The notes under the pieces were generated by a model. The model had not been told where the DNA came from. It searched no databases and saw nothing but the letters and a program-made list of their open reading frames with translations. A stretch of 64,000 bases of DNA from Paraeggerthella hongkongensis (lineage in GTDB: Bacteria > Actinomycetota > Coriobacteriia > Coriobacteriales > Eggerthellaceae): assembly GCF_003340345.1 (NCBI RefSeq), contig NZ_PPTQ01000006.1:1-64000 (forward strand). The letters run 5' to 3'. Positions 1,629 through 57,723 of this stretch are shown in pieces. A program made the position numbers and the translations under genes. The stretch's first letter is position 1. The number at the start of each line of letters is the position of its first letter.

Positions 1629-2984
1629 CTACATCACCTCGACGCACGCGGCGCGGGGTGCGCGAACAGCCTTGCCGCACTCGGCAAGGTCGCGCCCGTA
1701 CCCGCACGGCTGATCGGGATAGTGCGAGCGAAACACGGAATGGCCGCCCACGAACGCGCGCGTGACCACCGGCATGGTGCGCTTGCCCGCACCTTGCGCC
1801 AAGCCGGTCGAGGTGCCGCCAGCGCTTTCTCCGCAGGAGATCTCGCGCACCAGCAAGATGTCCCCGCGCTTGCCCACGGCAAGGGAGCCCACCTCGTCCG
1901 CAATGCCCGCAGCTTTCGCGGGATTGATGCTGACCAGGGAAAACGCTCGCGCGATATCCAACCCGCACCGATCGCGCAACGTGAACACGGCATCGAGCAG
2001 CGCCGCCGGATAGTAATCGCTGCACAGCACGTCGATCGCGCCGGCCTGCACGGCCTCGCGTGCGCTCAGATTGCCCGAATGGCTATGGCCCAGCATGACG
2101 TTGGGCGCCCCGGCAATCGTGTGCATGCCGCGCGCCCGCGCCTCGCGGGCGATGTCGAGCGAAATGGGAAACTCGGAAATGGTGGCCTCCAAGCCGTCCA
2201 TGAAAGCAAGCTTCTCCACGCTGTCGTCGTCGTGCGAGGCAATGGAAACGCCGCGCTCGCGCGCGATGGAAGCCAAGGCGGTGATCTGGGCGTACGTCAT
2301 TTTCTGGCTTTCCTGCTGCTGACGGACGATGTCGCGCACCTCGTCGTCGGAAACGTCGCGGTAGCCTTTGAGCGTGTCGCCGAACACCAGCAGGTCACGG
2401 TACTGGCCCTGGCCGGGGGTGTGATCCATGAACGACACCAGATCCACTTTGCCCGAACGCAAGAACTCCTCGATGTCGTCGTACAGATCCACCGAATCCA
2501 ATTCCACGCGCATGTGCAGGCGGTGGCGAATGAGGTGGTCGCGCTCTTCGCCGCCGCGCAGCGCCGCCACGCGGTCGATGAGCGCGCTCACGTTTCCAAA
2601 ATCGCGAATGGGCTTGTGGTCGAAGATGTGCGCTCCGTACACCGAAAGCGAGTGGAAGATGGTGGTCACGCCGTGCGACACCAGCTCGCGGTCGGCCTTG
2701 TACAGCGACGTGCTCAGGTCCATGACCACGCTCGGGCGCGGCGAGGCCACGTTTTCCACGTAGTCGGAGTGGATGTCGATCAGCCCGGGAGCCACGTACG
2801 CGCCGCGCGCATCGACTACGGGAAGCACGCCGACGACGGAATCGGGCTGCGCGTCGAAATCCGACACGCTGGAAGGCTCGATGGAGGCGATGCGCCCATC
2901 GATCACGACAACGTCGTGATCGGGCAATACGCGATCGGCGCACACCACCGTGCCGCCGCGGATGATGCAAGAGCTGTTGTCCAT
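1629..2984 (-). CDS. phnM: alpha-D-ribose 1-methylphosphonate 5-triphosphate diphosphatase PhnM
   Basis: Amidohydrolase-superfamily enzyme of 451 residues that removes pyrophosphate from the triphosphoribosyl phosphonate intermediate before C-P cleavage. Visible motifs are the metal-binding GLIDIHSDYVEN segment, SFMDHTPGQGQY typical of PhnM, IASHDDDS, and LCSDYYP near the C-terminal third. The open frame continues 98 codons further upstream, but that part is repeat-derived. The ATG at 2984 is preceded by GAAAGGA at proper spacing and starts the conserved MDNSSCIIRGG sequence, so I use it. The gene lies between phnK (257 nt upstream) and phnL (1 nt downstream). The last residues before the stop (AVRAPRAACVEVM) are poorly conserved. 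Confidence 0.95.
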   Translation of the reverse strand: MDNSSCIIRGGTVVCADRVLPDHDVVVIDGRIASIEPSSVSDFDAQPDSVVGVLPVVDARGAYVAPGLIDIHSDYVENVASPRPSVVMDLSTSLYKADRELVSHGVTTIFHSLSVYGAHIFDHKPIRDFGNVSALIDRVAALRGGEERDHLIRHRLHMRVELDSVDLYDDIEEFLRSGKVDLVSFMDHTPGQGQYRDLLVFGDTLKGYRDVSDDEVRDIVRQQQESQKMTYAQITALASIARERGVSIASHDDDSVEKLAFMDGLEATISEFPISLDIAREARARGMHTIAGAPNVMLGHSHSGNLSAREAVQAGAIDVLCSDYYPAALLDAVFTLRDRCGLDIARAFSLVSINPAKAAGIADEVGSLAVGKRGDILLVREISCGESAGGTSTGLAQGAGKRTMPVVTRAFVGGHSVFRSHYPDQPCGYGRDLAECGKAVRAPRAACVEVM

Positions 2985-3080
2985 GGAAGAATTCCTTTCG
3001 GGAGTTGGTCGGGCAGGAGCGAAGCGACCTGCCCATGCCGCCGCCAGGCGGCATGCGGGGCGTGCTGGTTGGCGTAGTAC

Positions 3081-3230
3081 GTCAGCGAGGGGGCTTCCCG
3101 GTGCCCGAGATTGGCGCGAAGGCTCGAGGAAGCGTGCTTTTGCACGCGACGAGGGCCTGGAGCGCCAAGATTGGGTGCCGGAAGCTCCCGCAGCGTCGGG
3201 CGGTTCCGGCGGTCGGCAGACCGCCGGAAC
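3081..3230. repeat. Phn-operon hairpin repeat, copy A
   Basis: A stretch of about 150 bp between phnK and phnM is homologous, in the same orientation, to 4140-4289 inside the phnJ frame. Both begin GTCAGCGAGGGGGCTTCC and share GCAGCGTCGGGCGGTT near the far end. The core forms a long imperfect hairpin: GGGGGCTTCC at 3089 pairs with GGAAGCTCCC at 3180, with a nested GCGTGC/GCACGC stem in the middle. No gene is carried. This is the untranslated copy. Confidence 0.75.
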
Positions 3231-3240
3231 CCGCTGCTCG

Positions 3241-4101
3241 TCAGAGCAGCGAATAGACGAGCTGCTGGGTGTAGGCATGCTGGGGATCCTCGAGGATCTG
3301 GTCGGTCAGGCCGCTTTCGATGACGCGGCCGTCCAGCATGACCAGGGTGCGATCGGCCAGCATGCGGATAACGCCCAGGTCGTGGCTTACCACCAACATG
3401 CTCACGTTGAAGTCGCGCCTGATCTGCTGGATAAGATCGAGCACGGCGGCCTGCACGGACAGGTCGAGCCCCGTGGTCACCTCGTCGAGCAGCAGGATGG
3501 GCGGGTTGTTGGACAGGGCCTTCGCAATCTGAACGCGCTGCTGCATGCCGCCGGAAAAGTTGCGCGGCGGCTCCACCGCGCGCGCCTGCGGTATGTTCAC
3601 ACGCCCTAGCAAGTCCTCGCCTCGTGCGCGCATGGCGCCCACGTTGCGGCTGCCTGCAGCTATCATCTGCTCGGCAATGTTGGACAAGCTGGAAAAATCC
3701 ATCCGCAAGCCCAGATACGGGTTCTGATACACCATGCCGAACACCGTGTTCCGAATAGCCCGACGCTGCTGCGACGACAAATCGAACAGGTTGGCGGCGC
3801 CACCGTCGTACGGCAGTGCGCGAACGTCGCCCGACGTTGCCTCCTCGTCGAAGAACAGGCACTTCATGAACGTGGACTTTCCGCTGCCGGACTCGCCCAC
3901 CACGCCCACGATCTCGGCGGGGAACACGTCCAAGCTCACGTCGCGCACCGCATGCACCGTACCGCAGCGCGGGCACACGTTGCGCTCGAGCTGCGCCGAG
4001 GAATCCAGGCAATACGCGCAACCGGAGCCGAACCGCTTCGACAGGTGGCGCACCGACAAGCTGGGCGTTTCATCTGCGCCGAAGTGCTGCGCATCAAGCA
4101 T
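3241..4101 (-). CDS. phnK: C-P lyase ABC protein PhnK with a four-cysteine insertion
   Basis: ABC-type ATPase of 286 residues that docks on PhnJ in the C-P lyase complex. Walker A GESGSGKST is near 69-77, signature FSGGMQQRVQIA lies mid-protein, Walker B ILLLDEVTTGLD follows, and the end QHAYTQQLVYSLL resembles PhnK and oligopeptide-type ATPases. Ahead of Walker A, residues 28-46 carry CAYC and CPRC (CX2C-X11-CX2C), a zinc-ribbon-like insertion that I do not recall in the E. coli protein. The ATG at 4101 is chosen because AAGGAG lies 7-8 nt upstream; an in-frame start at 4125 lacks this. The start overlaps the end of phnJ by 8 nt, so translation is probably coupled. Walker B has E-V rather than E-P. 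Confidence 0.93.
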   Translation of the reverse strand: MLDAQHFGADETPSLSVRHLSKRFGSGCAYCLDSSAQLERNVCPRCGTVHAVRDVSLDVFPAEIVGVVGESGSGKSTFMKCLFFDEEATSGDVRALPYDGGAANLFDLSSQQRRAIRNTVFGMVYQNPYLGLRMDFSSLSNIAEQMIAAGSRNVGAMRARGEDLLGRVNIPQARAVEPPRNFSGGMQQRVQIAKALSNNPPILLLDEVTTGLDLSVQAAVLDLIQQIRRDFNVSMLVVSHDLGVIRMLADRTLVMLDGRVIESGLTDQILEDPQHAYTQQLVYSLL

Positions 4102-5101
4102 GGGGCGCTCCTTCCAAAGAATCACTGGTCGTTCGCAGAGTCAGCGAGGGGGCTTCCGGTGCCGAAGATTGCGGGGAGAGCCCGACGAAGCGTGCTTCTG
4201 CACGTGAGGAGGGTTCGGAGCCGCAAGGTTCGGTGCCGGAAGGCGCCGCAGCGTCGGGCGGTTTCGGCGGCTGGCAAGCCGACGAAACGCAGAACGCGGT
4301 GTCGTTGCACTGGTAGAACACGGCGCCGGTTTCCTCGTCCACCAACTCGTCCAGGTACACGTTCCGAGCGCCGCACAAGCGGCACTGCTTGCCGTCGAAG
4401 CGCTCCACCGCGAAGGGATAGTCCTCGAAATCCAAGGGAGCGACGTTCGTGTAAGGAGGCACCGCGTATATCTTCTTCTCGCGGCCTGCACCCAGCAGGG
4501 TCAGGTGATCGGCCTGGTGAAGCTTCATGTTGTCGAAACGGGGAATGGGAGACGGGGCCATGACGTAGCGATTGTGCACGAGCACGGGGTGATCGGCGCC
4601 CGTCGTGGTCATGTTGAATCGCACGATCTGGTCGAACAGCTCCAGCCACGCGCCCGTGTAGTCGGCTTCCGCATGCAGGCGCCGCGTGACGGCCTCGCTC
4701 GGCTCGAAGCTGCGCAACGGCTCGGGCGTGGGCACCTGAAGCACCAGCACCTGGTCTGCGCGCAGCGGCTGCTCGGGAATGCGATGGCGCGACTGCACCA
4801 GCGTGGCCTCTTCGGTAACGTCGGTGACCTCGACATCGGTGGTGTCGGCCACCAGCTTCTTGATGTTGACGGCGTTCACGCTGTCGTCCGACCCCTGGTC
4901 GATCACCTTGAGCACGTCATCGCGCCCGATCAGGCTGAGCGTGATCTGCAACCCGCCCGTGCCCCACCCGCGTCCGATGGGCATTTCGCGCGACGCGAAG
5001 GGCACCTGATAACCCGGGATGGACACGCCTTTGATGATCGCGCGGCGGATCTCGCGCTTCGACGCCTCGTCGAAAAACGCGTAATTATAGCGCTGCTGCA
5101 T
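4094..5101 (-). CDS. phnJ: C-P lyase core subunit PhnJ with repeat-encoded C-terminal tail
   Basis: Radical SAM-type C-P lyase of 335 residues that cleaves the carbon-phosphorus bond. Cys240, Cys243, Cys265 and Cys271 (CRLC, then QCNDTAFC) match the spacing of E. coli Cys241/244/266 (cluster) and Cys272 (thiyl radical). The ATG at 5101 begins MQQRYNYAFFDE, typical of PhnJ; the longer open frame upstream is phnI in another frame. It overlaps phnI by 17 nt and phnK by 8 nt. The family usually ends about 10 residues after the radical Cys (281 residues in E. coli). Here about 64 more residues follow, rich in Pro, Ser and Ala, and most are encoded by the dispersed repeat at 4140-4289. Whether the tail is retained or cleaved cannot be seen from sequence. 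Confidence 0.95.
   Translation of the reverse strand: MQQRYNYAFFDEASKREIRRAIIKGVSIPGYQVPFASREMPIGRGWGTGGLQITLSLIGRDDVLKVIDQGSDDSVNAVNIKKLVADTTDVEVTDVTEEATLVQSRHRIPEQPLRADQVLVLQVPTPEPLRSFEPSEAVTRRLHAEADYTGAWLELFDQIVRFNMTTTGADHPVLVHNRYVMAPSPIPRFDNMKLHQADHLTLLGAGREKKIYAVPPYTNVAPLDFEDYPFAVERFDGKQCRLCGARNVYLDELVDEETGAVFYQCNDTAFCVSSACQPPKPPDAAAPSGTEPCGSEPSSRAEARFVGLSPQSSAPEAPSLTLRTTSDSLEGAPHA
4140..4289. repeat. Phn-operon hairpin repeat, copy B, inside the phnJ frame
   Basis: Second copy of the 150-bp repeat at 3081-3230, same orientation. GGGGGCTTCCGGTGCC at 4149 pairs with the GGTGCCGGAAGGCGCC region around 4233-4248 in an imperfect hairpin. It is open in the phnJ frame and supplies most of PhnJ residues 272-320, so an insertion appears to have replaced or displaced the original phnJ stop while keeping the coupling to phnK. 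Confidence 0.75.
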
Positions 5102-6233
5102 CGGCAGACCCCTTCCCTTCCTCGCGCGTGCCGCGCACGCTGGACAGCTTCGATTGGAACGTGACGTAGTGCGGCAGCTTGAGGTGCGAGATGAACCCCG
5201 TAGCCTCCACGCCGTCCACGTGGTACAAAACGAACTCCTCGTCTTCAGTGGGATAGCGCGCATCGCCCAGCTCCAAGCAGCGATCGAGCACGCTCATAGC
5301 GATGGCCTTGGTCTCGGCGCGGCCGAACACGCAGCCGTAACCCACGGCCAAAGACAAGCTGGCCGACAGGTTCGCCACCTCGTCCTCATGGGACATGAAC
5401 ACGCTTTCGACTTCGGTAAGGGGAACCGACCCCAGGTAGTACGCGTCTTCGGCGCCGCCCGCCTCCAGCGGGTGATCGACCGACACCGCAACCATGCCGC
5501 TGCGCAGCTCGCCCACCGTGGGATGCGCGGGCCCGAAGCCGCGAATGGCCGCGTACCCCAACGCCTCGACGGCCTGCGTCATGCCGCGCGCAAGCGTTTG
5601 CAAGCGCACGGAACGCGGCGCGGGAAACGTGAGCGGGACCATGGTGGCGTCAACCGGCGGGGTATCATCGCATCGCACGGGTTCGACCAGTCCTTCGCCG
5701 CGCAGGTAATCCAAAACGCGCGGAAGCGCAGCGGGGAGCGCGCCGTCTGCAGCGGCAGTTGCGGCGCAGGCGTCCTCGTCAAAGTGACGCAGCAGCTCCG
5801 CGCGCTTTTCCGCAAGGACTTCCTCGTCTTCGGTCTCCAGGTCGAACGCGAGCAGACGATGGCCGTAATCGCGCGTAGCGCCAAGAACCTGACCTCCCGG
5901 AACGTCCTTGAATGCCGCCGACACCCGGCGATTCGCGCGCATGCTCCCCGTATCGATGGGCCGCGAAACGTACGGCCGCTCCAGCGTCGAGCGAAACGCG
6001 CGCAGAAGAAACACCGCTTCATCGGGCGATCCTTGCGCCTGCTTGAGCGCAAGCGCCGCCAAGCGCGGGGCGTACAGCGACGCCTCGCCCATCACCTGGT
6101 CGATCAGGTCAGGAAACGTGCCCTCGATCTGGTCGGTTCCCCACGCTGCCGAAGAGCTGACGCGTTCGAGCTCAAGCAGCTTGAGGCTTTCCTCGATGGC
6201 CTTGCCGCCGCCGCGAACCGCAACGTATCCCAT
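5085..6233 (-). CDS. phnI: C-P lyase subunit PhnI
   Basis: Protein of 382 residues matching PhnI from its MGYVAVRGGGKAI start, including the EGTFPDLIDQVMGEASLYAPRL-like region (split here: EGTFPDLIDQVMGE and SLYAPRLAALALKQAQG) and YVTFQSKL near the end. PhnI is the nucleosidase-like catalytic subunit that, with PhnG, PhnH and PhnL, swaps the adenine of ATP for phosphonate to give ribose 1-phosphonate 5-triphosphate. The gene follows phnH without a gap and overlaps phnJ by 17 nt. Length and ends are normal for the family. Confidence 0.95.
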   Translation of the reverse strand: MGYVAVRGGGKAIEESLKLLELERVSSSAAWGTDQIEGTFPDLIDQVMGEASLYAPRLAALALKQAQGSPDEAVFLLRAFRSTLERPYVSRPIDTGSMRANRRVSAAFKDVPGGQVLGATRDYGHRLLAFDLETEDEEVLAEKRAELLRHFDEDACAATAAADGALPAALPRVLDYLRGEGLVEPVRCDDTPPVDATMVPLTFPAPRSVRLQTLARGMTQAVEALGYAAIRGFGPAHPTVGELRSGMVAVSVDHPLEAGGAEDAYYLGSVPLTEVESVFMSHEDEVANLSASLSLAVGYGCVFGRAETKAIAMSVLDRCLELGDARYPTEDEEFVLYHVDGVEATGFISHLKLPHYVTFQSKLSSVRGTREEGKGSADAAAL

Positions 6234-11659: not shown

Positions 11660-11816
11660 CTTGGCACGAAATCTCGGGTCTGCGTCGTCTCGCCGGACTA
11701 TCGGCTGCGGTTGCTTTGAGCAGTTGCACCAACAGGCCAGCTCAACAAGCCGCAACAGATTCGGCAACGATCGAAGGCGTTTCTCAAGGAGCGCAGACCC
11801 GCGATCCCGTGCCAAG
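11660..11816. repeat. 157-bp dispersed palindrome, family 1, copy 1
   Basis: Ends are inverted repeats: CTTGGCACG at the left and CGTGCCAAG at the right, extending inward to CGGGTCTGCG/GCGCAGACCCG. The interior holds GAGCAGTTGCACCAACAGG and CCAGCTCAA blocks shared with the copies at 12850 and 57414. All three copies have the same orientation and a nearly equal length. No coding capacity is seen. Confidence 0.8.
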
Positions 11817-11848
11817 CCGGACGCCAAACCCAGAAAACATGCGGGGCC

Positions 11849-12849: not shown

Positions 12850-13006
12850 CCTGGCGCGAAATCGCGGGTCTGCGCTGCTCAACCAGCCCATCGGCCGCAG
12901 CCGTTTTGAGCGCCTGCATCAACAGACCAGCTCATCGAAACGCGATAGATTCGACGGGTATCGAAGACGATCGCCTGAAAGCGCAGACCCGCGATTTCGT
13001 ACCAAG
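12850..13006. repeat. 157-bp dispersed palindrome, family 1, copy 2
   Basis: The most symmetrical copy: CGAAATCGCGGGTCTGCGC at the left (12857-12875) pairs perfectly with GCGCAGACCCGCGATTTCG at the right (12981-12999). The interior matches copy 1 (TTTTGAGCG, TGCATCAACAGACCAGCTCA). Together with copy 1 it brackets the nuclease-like gene. Right of it, 13015-13083 forms a further weak GAGTCT/AGACTC hairpin up to the stop of the aldo/keto reductase gene; no gene lies in 12806-13087. Confidence 0.82.
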
Positions 13007-13087
13007 CGCAGGAGGCGCACGAGTCTCACCCAGCAAAACGCATTCGGGTCCGCCGCGGTCCTGCGGCTGAAAGACTCGGCGCATCCC

Positions 13088-23361: not shown

Positions 23362-23471
23362 GTTCGCCTCGCAGGGCCGTGCGCGTCCCGCTCAAGCAGA
23401 CACGTGGACGGGTATGGGCAAACTGTTCCGCACGACCAGCTGCGGGAAGCGCACGGCCCTGCGAGGCGAAC
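23362..23471. repeat. 110-bp perfect-armed hairpin element
   Basis: The arms 23362-23391 and 23442-23471 are complementary over 30 bp with one mismatch (GTTCGCCTCGCAGGGCCGTG at the outer left). The 50-bp centre is unpaired. It lies 15 bp after the rhodanese stop; there is no T-run, so it looks more like a palindromic repeat element than a terminator. No second copy is in this window. Confidence 0.7.
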
Positions 23472-48197: not shown

Positions 48198-48397
48198 AAT
48201 GTAGGAAATTATAACCTTATATTCCCCATTCGTCTGAAAATATCAGAGAATATTCCATCGATAGGCCACATGACGCCTGTCGCAAGGCGCGCGCCTGGCT
48301 TCAACCCAGGTCGCGCGGGTTCTACAAGGCGGCTGCGCACGGCGTGCAGGGCGGACGTCGACAGTCTGCGCCGCCGCGCAGCGCCGACTTGCCACGC

Positions 48398-48549
48398 CAT
48401 CCTGTCAAAACGATCGAGTTTTGCGGCGATTTTCCGCCCTTGAGGGAGCAGCTTCTGGGACGCGTTTTGCATCGTCCCAGGTCATGAAGGTGCAAGAACC
48501 CCTTATCCTGGTTCGAGGACCAGCAAAACTCGCTCGTTTTGACAGGATG
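48398..48549. repeat. 152-bp dispersed palindrome, family 3, copy A
   Basis: Terminal inverted repeats of 27 bp with one mismatch: CATCCTGTCAAAACGATCGA at the left, ending GACAGGATG at the right. The interior includes TTATCCTGGTTCGAGGACCA. A copy with high identity and the same orientation lies at 49782-49934. The VOC-fold gene is between them. Confidence 0.82.
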
Positions 48550-49678: not shown

Positions 49679-49781
49679 ACCAGCAAGCAGGAGTCGGTCC
49701 CACAGCTATTCGGCACGCGACGCCCCGCCCCTCCGACGGTCGGCGGCGCGACGCCCGCCCTTCCGCGCGGATCGTCGCGCC

Positions 49782-49934
49782 GTCCTGTCAAAACGAGCGA
49801 GTTTTGCGGCGATTTCCCGTCTTTGGGAGAACCACTCCTCGAACGCGTTTTACATCGCCCCAGGTCACGCAGCCGCCAGTAGCTTTTATCCTGGTTCGAG
49901 GACCAGTAAAACTCGTTCGTTTTGACAGGATCGT
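49782..49934. repeat. 152-bp dispersed palindrome, family 3, copy B
   Basis: Same structure as 48398-48549: CGTCCTGTCAAAACGAGCGA at the left, TTTTGACAGGATCG at the right, interior TTATCCTGGTTCGAGGACCA identical. The arms carry a few more changes than in copy A. Gene-free interval 49679-49981 otherwise. Confidence 0.8.
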
Positions 49935-57075: not shown

Positions 57076-57723
57076 GGATATCTCCTTGTCTCCGCACGGC
57101 AAGCGCCGCGGGCTTTGGGCAACTATAGGTCGCAAGTGCAGGGCCCAACGATGCAAATGCGAGACCTTCCGATGCGGGCGTGAAATCCGCAGCGCAAAGC
57201 CAGAAGGCAGTATAGCAGAGAAGCGGGCTTTGAGCGCGCCGCGCGACACGGCGCACAGCAAAGCCGAGGGCGCCAGGGGCGAGGGCGCTGTTCGCTTGGC
57301 GCTCGTTCGCACGCGGGCGTCTGCGCCGTCGTTCTGCGCGCAAGGACGCAGGAGGTTGAACGCGCAGGGGGCCGATGGCCGAACGCGCGGCTCGGTGCCT
57401 TTCCCGCGATTTTTTTGGACACGAAATCGCGGGACTGCGCTCCTTGCGCGGCTTGTCGGGTGCGGTCGTTTTGTGCGCCCGCATCAACGAACCAGCTCAC
57501 CGAGACGCAGCGGATTCGACGGCTGTCGAGAGTCCTCGTCCAGCAGCGCAGACCGGGGATTTTGCGCCACGAACGGATCGAACGATCCCACCAACAGATC
57601 TTCGCCCTGCCGCCAGACCATCGGGCTGGGAGCGCAACGCGCGCAACCCATCCGCAACTCGTCGGGTAGAATACGACAGAAAGAACATCGCGCGTCCGCG
57701 CCCGAAGAGAAAGCCGGAACTGC
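57076..57723. other. Gene-free region between queT and the nitroreductase
   Basis: It holds the queT leader, a GC-rich stretch (57180-57410) without supported gene, and the third family-1 palindrome at 57414-57569. AAAGCCGGAACTGC precedes the nitroreductase start, a weak ribosome binding site. Confidence 0.55.
57414..57569. repeat. About 155-bp dispersed palindrome, family 1, copy 3
   Basis: ACACGAAATCGCGGGACTGC at the left (57419-57438), CAGCGCAGACCGGGGATTTT at the right, and interior blocks TGCGCCCGCATCAACGAACC and GCAGCGGATTCGACGGCTGT match copies at 11660 and 12850. This is the most diverged copy; TTTTTTT precedes it. Confidence 0.75.

Follow-up and report, generated by a model that had tools for sequence, protein, structure and literature searches.

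The phn operon lies on the minus strand of the window (the whole 64,000-nt stretch of DNA that was analysed). The gene phnJ (4094..5101, stop codon at 4094-4096) encodes the radical subunit of C-P lyase, a protein of 335 residues that matches Pfam family PF06007 between residues 4 and 273 (E = 1.5e-136); in a PhnJ search of the family, its relatives reached 96% identity across the full length. Cys271 of this protein (codon 4289..4291, minus strand) is the radical cysteine. In the alignment to PDB chain 7z15_D, the E. coli PhnJ chain of 281 residues, Cys271 is equivalent to E. coli Cys272, and a further 64 residues follow it in the window protein, nearly all of them beyond the residue at which the Pfam match stops. 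The next gene, an ORF at 3241..4101 (minus strand) with an ABC_tran match, is taken from the operon context to be phnK, and the gene after it (1629..2984, minus strand; amidohydrolase Pfam matches, likely start at 2984) is taken on the same grounds to be phnM. The phnK ATG (4099-4101) lies inside the end of phnJ, such that the two genes overlap.

Two copies of a repeat element occupy this locus, both assigned to the plus strand, which is the better-folding (structural) strand and, for copy 1, antisense to phnJ. Copy 1 covers 164 nt at 4126..4289 (covariance model score 174.4 bits, E = 1.5e-35) and copy 2 lies between phnK and phnM at 3067..3231 (172.1 bits, E = 4.8e-35); both are among the 12 sequences that trained the covariance model scoring them. 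The pair is 77% identical over 141 nt in an ungapped comparison, and each copy folds better on the plus strand (copy 1, 4139-4288: z = −6.7 on plus and −3.1 on minus; copy 2, 3081-3230: z = −9.0 on plus and −5.2 on minus). Copy 1 consists of a terminal 28-nt hairpin (4261..4288, plus strand) adjoining the Cys271 codon, in which 12 of 12 helix pairs show two-sided changes over 105 copies of the element, and of a long hairpin with a linker (approximate limits 4140..4259, plus strand), whose main helix has two-sided changes at 22 of 24 pairs. With its last base, 4289, the element takes up the third position of the Cys271 codon. On the minus strand, 4127..4288 is translated into residues 272-325, so that 54 of the 64 tail residues are derived from the element (among them the peptide FVGLSPQSSAPEAPSLTLR); residues 326-335 (4097..4126, minus strand) are the old end of phnJ together with the phnK ribosome-binding region, and resemble the end of an element-less PhnJ (...EGAPHA in L042). 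The AlphaFold2 model is moderate overall (mean pLDDT 64) and gives pLDDT <50 for residues 277-335, a prediction with which the tail is probably disordered.

Much of this layout had been anticipated by the initial annotation, which described a tail of about 64 residues beyond Cys271, a repeat placed directly after the catalytic codon, a preserved overlap with phnK and a tail that is probably disordered; all four points hold. The palindromic repeat pair that it reported is real as well, with a length of 164 nt in place of the proposed 150 bp, and the other copy does lie between phnK and phnM. Across 2985-3278, however, the phnM frame has no stop and runs upstream over repeat copy 2 as far as an ATG at 3278; judged from the frame alone, copy 2 may form an N-terminal extension of PhnM.

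PhnJ ends were compared at 80 named loci, 76 of which were readable at the C-terminal end. Sixty-five of the 76 proteins end 6-19 residues past the cysteine, in keeping with the earlier expectation that PhnJ usually ends near its thiyl-radical Cys. The search of the family gave PhnJ matches in 28 of 138 genomes, and 27 of these are true PhnJ; G063 was left out because its match arises only via the repeat inside its recQ. Ends were read in 23 of the 27 family loci, and the tree takes all 27. The same in-frame element tail is present in five of the 27 proteins, from four genera: the carriers are the window genome, an assembly named Paraeggerthella hongkongensis, Gordonibacter sp. Marseille-P2775, Gordonibacter sp. 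An230 and G053, presumably Eggerthella lenta DSM 2243. By eye, two Gordonibacter loci (L036 and L038) contain a short remnant of the element plus another repeat at the same place, and G055 and G069 contain a repeat resembling that of L038 with no element remnant. Two Adlercreutzia and a Coriobacteriaceae MAG have PhnJ tails of 54, 49 and 78 residues that lack the element, and the PhnJ end thus accepts tails of several origins. Two other palindromic repeats stand in frame at this PhnJ tail position in L036, L038, L043 and L044.

In the tree of the 27 family proteins, the carriers sit in a clade of 14 rows within which presence is patchy, a distribution that does not separate one gain followed by losses from recombination or repeated gain. 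Pairwise comparison of the five tailed genes gave dN/dS values of 0.30-1.23 for the tail and 0.06-0.20 for the core, the tail being higher in 10 of 10 comparisons, and as a protein the tail looks weakly constrained. Synonymous divergence showed the opposite ranking, tail below core in all ten pairs, which would fit either a constrained nucleotide fold or a segment moved or converted after the lineages split. The claim that a repeat became the translated tail stands, with the correction that this is not an incident of one operon, since the tail recurs in five PhnJ and remnants are found in two more. Repeat-less PhnJ tails, which the initial annotation had regarded as evidence against its reading, do occur to the extent described above, and the repeat origin of the tail in the window is retained.

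The covariance model, built from 12 copies, comprises 164 positions and 51 pairs arranged in two hairpins. What had been presented as a two-copy repeat is represented in the window genome by 12 full copies (E <1e-13) plus weaker partial copies, and about 100 further family genomes have matches as well: at E ≤0.001, 105 of 138 family genomes have a match, with best E values <1e-13 in 97 and >1e-13 in eight. The number of matches per family genome runs from none (33 of 138) to 47 (G053); these copy numbers are lower bounds, as the two surveys scored 21 and 7 candidates per genome under strict filters. A sample spanning the class gave matches at E ≤1e-4 in 157 of 396 genomes, a count in which weak matches from outside the family may be other hairpins, because three of the four matches in G217 were inspected and lack element-like ends, although their E values go down to 3e-12. 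G266, from a different family of the same order, was also inspected and bears the element, extending its range to at least a second family.

The fold is well reflected in 105 distinct copies, in which 95.2% of the pair cells are paired and 46 of the 51 pairs show two-sided changes. Covariation over these copies is very strong, with a score of 0.60; sliding the structure gives no more than 0.12 and shuffling a mean of 0.19, in an alignment that was fitted to the structure and leans towards it. The structural (window-plus) strand gives the better fold in 99 of 101 copies under RNA parameters and in 100 of 101 under DNA parameters, and G-U cells exceed A-C cells (315 versus 86), a large share of them coming from a fixed U-G/G-U step. 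The motif GCGTCG is invariant in the 12 aligned copies and lies several bases before the terminal stem. By eye, inversion at the element ends amounts to no more than GGTT...AACC, in one of the end types, and long terminal inverted repeats were not seen. A longer form, of about 187-194 nt, was seen in G053 at L248, L253, L268, L283, L247, L261, L281 and L265.

Known Rfam RNAs were considered and rejected: window positions 2900-5200 gave no match at E up to 1, and five loci of relatives gave only five matches (E 0.09-0.84), all under the gathering scores, two of which overlap element copies. No description of the element was found among the open-licence papers listed by the literature searches, and the family is apparently new; it may be among the 3161 candidate structured RNAs from human microbiomes, 250 of them palindromic, that are reported in PMC8040213. 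The window contains other repeats besides. A second family (11662-11817, 12852-13007 and 57417-57572) has inverted ends of the form TGGCACGAAATC...GATTTCGTGCCA-like, is MITE-like and lies outside called genes; a third (48395-48548 and 49778-49931, 83% alike) has inverted ends around CCTGTCAAAACGA and is also MITE-like; and the segments 23362-23391 and 23442-23471 form a 30-nt inverted repeat, 97% complementary, with its arms 50 nt apart.

The genomic context of the element was counted for 40 of the 47 matches in G053, after setting aside seven that are short or weak, and for the 12 full copies of the window genome, with genes taken from codon-score calls trained on the window rather than from annotation. 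In 50 of these 52 copies, the abutting or host gene opposes the structural strand. Twenty of the 33 intergenic G053 copies begin between −2 and +4 nt from the upstream stop codon, against an expectation of about 3%, and in eight more the stop is located 16 nt inside the match. The same stop-codon placement is found in G266 for 17 of 21 full-length matches, or 17 of 23 with two short ones included (the context count uses 21 of the 27 matches there, four having not been run and the two short ones left out). At one gene end common to four genera (L249, L157, L159 and L205), where the gene ends in ...VPxA, the stop falls inside the hairpin loop of the element and the stem carries compensating changes. 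In L256 of G053 (2139-4695), copies lie between genes that by translation resemble an amino-acid transporter operon, with one copy after the binding-protein gene and a partial copy after the permease gene.

The element is polar with respect to replication as well as transcription. By GC skew, 45 of 47 G053 copies oppose the leading strand, whereas 217 of 319 called genes (68%) in 20 stretches of this genome lie on it; the difference (p = 3.6e-6) means that gene orientation alone is insufficient to explain the polarity. In G063, 37 of 39 copies conform when the chromosome is divided into halves. A half-genome split gave no polarity in G067 (p = 1.0), where two breakpoints fitted post hoc gave 36 of 40 (1 of 2000 shuffles), and the polarity in G266 is 23 of 27 (29 of 2000 shuffles). 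The combination of exact stop-codon placement and replichore polarity was not found described in those portions of the literature that were searched.

In seven of the 40 G053 copies the element is in frame within a protein: PhnJ, RecQ, RsmA, the fumarase alpha chain, a pyruvate:ferredoxin oxidoreductase chain, isochorismate synthase and CarA. In RecQ, it occupies the variable zinc-domain linker at 10 of 30 loci (six sense and four antisense, all open), a proportion enriched in carriers by a query that contained the element and by the choice of the 30 loci as the best of 93 genomes. RsmA is filled in G053, while its two halves are nearly adjacent in six of seven other genomes (G067 gave no match), three of which share the genus label of G053. 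This comparison indicates a lineage-specific insertion in G053, which replaced about 25-42 nt of linker, and because of it we conclude that the family has moved. In G087, the element lies inside LeuRS, and the LeuRS family match is split into two stretches. A peptide like the PhnJ tail occurs in unrelated proteins: 11 of 13 antisense in-gene copies (five of them in phnJ) use one frame, with RsmA and CarA differing, and all five sense copies (four in recQ, one in leuS) likewise use a single frame. As these antisense and sense frames are open in 41 and 23 of 83 other copies, respectively, an open frame is common enough to arise by chance and then be kept. An intron-like model, in which the element is removed as RNA, was put aside, the copies being found inside ORFs in both orientations and all open.

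P. hongkongensis, which has 17 matches, shares every one of the 12 full-copy sites of the window genome, so nothing shows recent movement in the latter, and some element places are common to several genera. We chose nine sets of shared places from the similarity of their flanks; they yield 133 cells with two-sided changes that keep the pair and 78 that break it (pairwise cells, which are not independent events), the phnJ set contributing 25 and 16. Pair-keeping at shared places exceeds what a decaying fossil should show. No target duplication was seen by eye at two filled/empty comparisons. The Y1 transposase (PF01797) has no match in the window genome, G053, G063 or G066, and two matches each in G076 and G067; beside four Y1 loci of relatives the element model matched weakly, at L061 alone, with a best score of 20 bits. 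With four element-bearing genomes devoid of a match, the Y1 transposase is not supported as a resident mobiliser there. Copies about 850 bp apart were also considered as the flanks of a transposase; the one pair examined, in G053 at 839790/840632, speaks against this, as it flanks what by translation is a putative transporter permease.

The closest parallels are with two kinds of palindromic repeat. Rickettsia palindromic elements (RPE) are described, in passages of PMC10969869 and PMC3733652, as palindromic sequences of about 150 bp that occur in frame in many unrelated genes and encode a conserved peptide. The element shares with them its in-frame presence as a palindromic repeat in phnJ, recQ, rsmA, leuS and other genes, and a recurrent reading register and peptide. 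It differs in belonging to other bacteria and apparently in sequence (RPE being likened by description, with no kinship claimed), in its two separate hairpins, in the position of most copies at stop codons, in its strong gene and replichore polarity, and in the use of both strands as coding. REPs of the GTAG and CGTC types, according to PMC3733652, lie near the 3′ ends of upstream ORFs, with some in repair genes and tRNA synthetases, and have G-T pairing in their stems, the CGTC type having no dedicated transposase. The element resembles them in its position at gene 3′ ends, its several in-gene copies and its G-T stem pairs and, as regards the CGTC type, in the negative Y1 search of four genomes. 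Unlike REPs, which are single palindromes of 20-40 bp, it measures 164 nt with two hairpins; its CGTC stands some bases off the stem; and, in contrast to the GTAG type with its RAYT (Y1), the Y1 search of the window genome, G053, G063 and G066 was negative. It is small, non-autonomous and dispersed like a MITE, but, judged by eye, shows no long terminal inverted repeats and, at two sites, no target duplication. Passages in PMC3733652 note that frequent in-frame translation of palindromic repeats is known in Rickettsia and that intragenic REPs occur in several other bacteria, and a 2024 review (PMC10969869) finds it conceivable that proteins of other prokaryotes evolve in a similar way. By analogy, the element apparently works like Rickettsia palindromic elements, as an apparently new family of a known kind with unusual polarity.

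The analysis establishes the 164-nt element itself: how it folds, how widely it occurs, that it sits at gene ends with a strand polarity, and that it lies in frame within several proteins. Judging from the sequences, the PhnJ tail is probably best explained as the translation of a non-autonomous, strand-specific hairpin repeat that behaves like a REP or a Rickettsia palindromic element. Copies would have entered in folded, single-stranded form, or by way of an RNA copy, in an orientation fixed to transcription and replication, and most survivors would be those at stop codons. A few would have inserted just before a stop or in a flexible linker, to be kept since one frame was open. An ancestor of the Paraeggerthella/Eggerthella/Gordonibacter group would have gained the phnJ copy between the cysteine codon and the phnK ribosome-binding site, leaving the enzyme core untouched with the disordered tail carried along; later, some lineages would have lost or replaced the tail. 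Entry in folded, single-stranded form would explain the fixed orientation. The strand that folds better lies opposite the lagging-strand template, however, an arrangement not known for IS200/IS605-type transposition; both a removal of copies that fold on this template and a maintained function are live alternatives.

A maintained function is at the centre of the strongest competing explanation, which we consider rather unlikely: that the element, rather than being chiefly selfish DNA, does work at gene 3′ ends as a strand-specific nucleic acid, be it an antisense RNA with a structure, a signal that terminates antisense transcription or a DNA site that replication reads, and that the copies inside ORFs, phnJ included, keep their fold through selected function. 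The pair-keeping changes at shared places, among them the phnJ set, would fit this, as would the low synonymous divergence of the tail in each of the ten comparisons, the greater stability of the structural strand in nearly all copies under RNA parameters, a polarity well in excess of that of leading-strand genes, and the presence of the element in the family of G266. Hairpin-templated repair or gene conversion could, however, keep pairs too; the host genes are unrelated; the number of matches swings between none and 47 per genome; and insertion inside RsmA, RecQ and LeuRS is ill-suited to a part that acts at 3′ ends. Only tentatively, and as a possibility that we hold to be well short of even, might the broader picture be that of an undescribed structured element, carried by Eggerthella-like bacteria and by one or more other families of their order, anchored at stop codons, aligned with transcription and replication, and with its fold actively maintained opposite the gene while the other strand is translated in PhnJ, RecQ and RsmA, one sequence serving as both nucleic-acid structure and protein linker.

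That the tail was recruited as a functional segment of PhnJ, for example one that binds PhnK, is much less probable still. The tail is open in five genomes of four genera, as such a role would predict, but its dN/dS is above that of the core in every comparison, it is predicted to be disordered, it is missing from close relatives, some of which have unrelated repeats instead, and a like peptide occurs in unrelated proteins. An artefact, in which a stop was lost through sequencing or assembly error (the other objection that the initial annotation had raised against itself), is scarcely credible, as the identical open frame is present in five assemblies.

On the preferred reading of the tail as a translated hairpin repeat, translation of repeats takes place here among Eggerthella-like gut bacteria, in RsmA, RecQ, LeuRS and PhnJ, and orthologues with and without the insert can be set against each other. 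Two questions become testable: whether the inserts are produced as protein and put up with beside active sites, and how a repeat with no known resident transposase gains a 96% strand bias and placement at stop codons.
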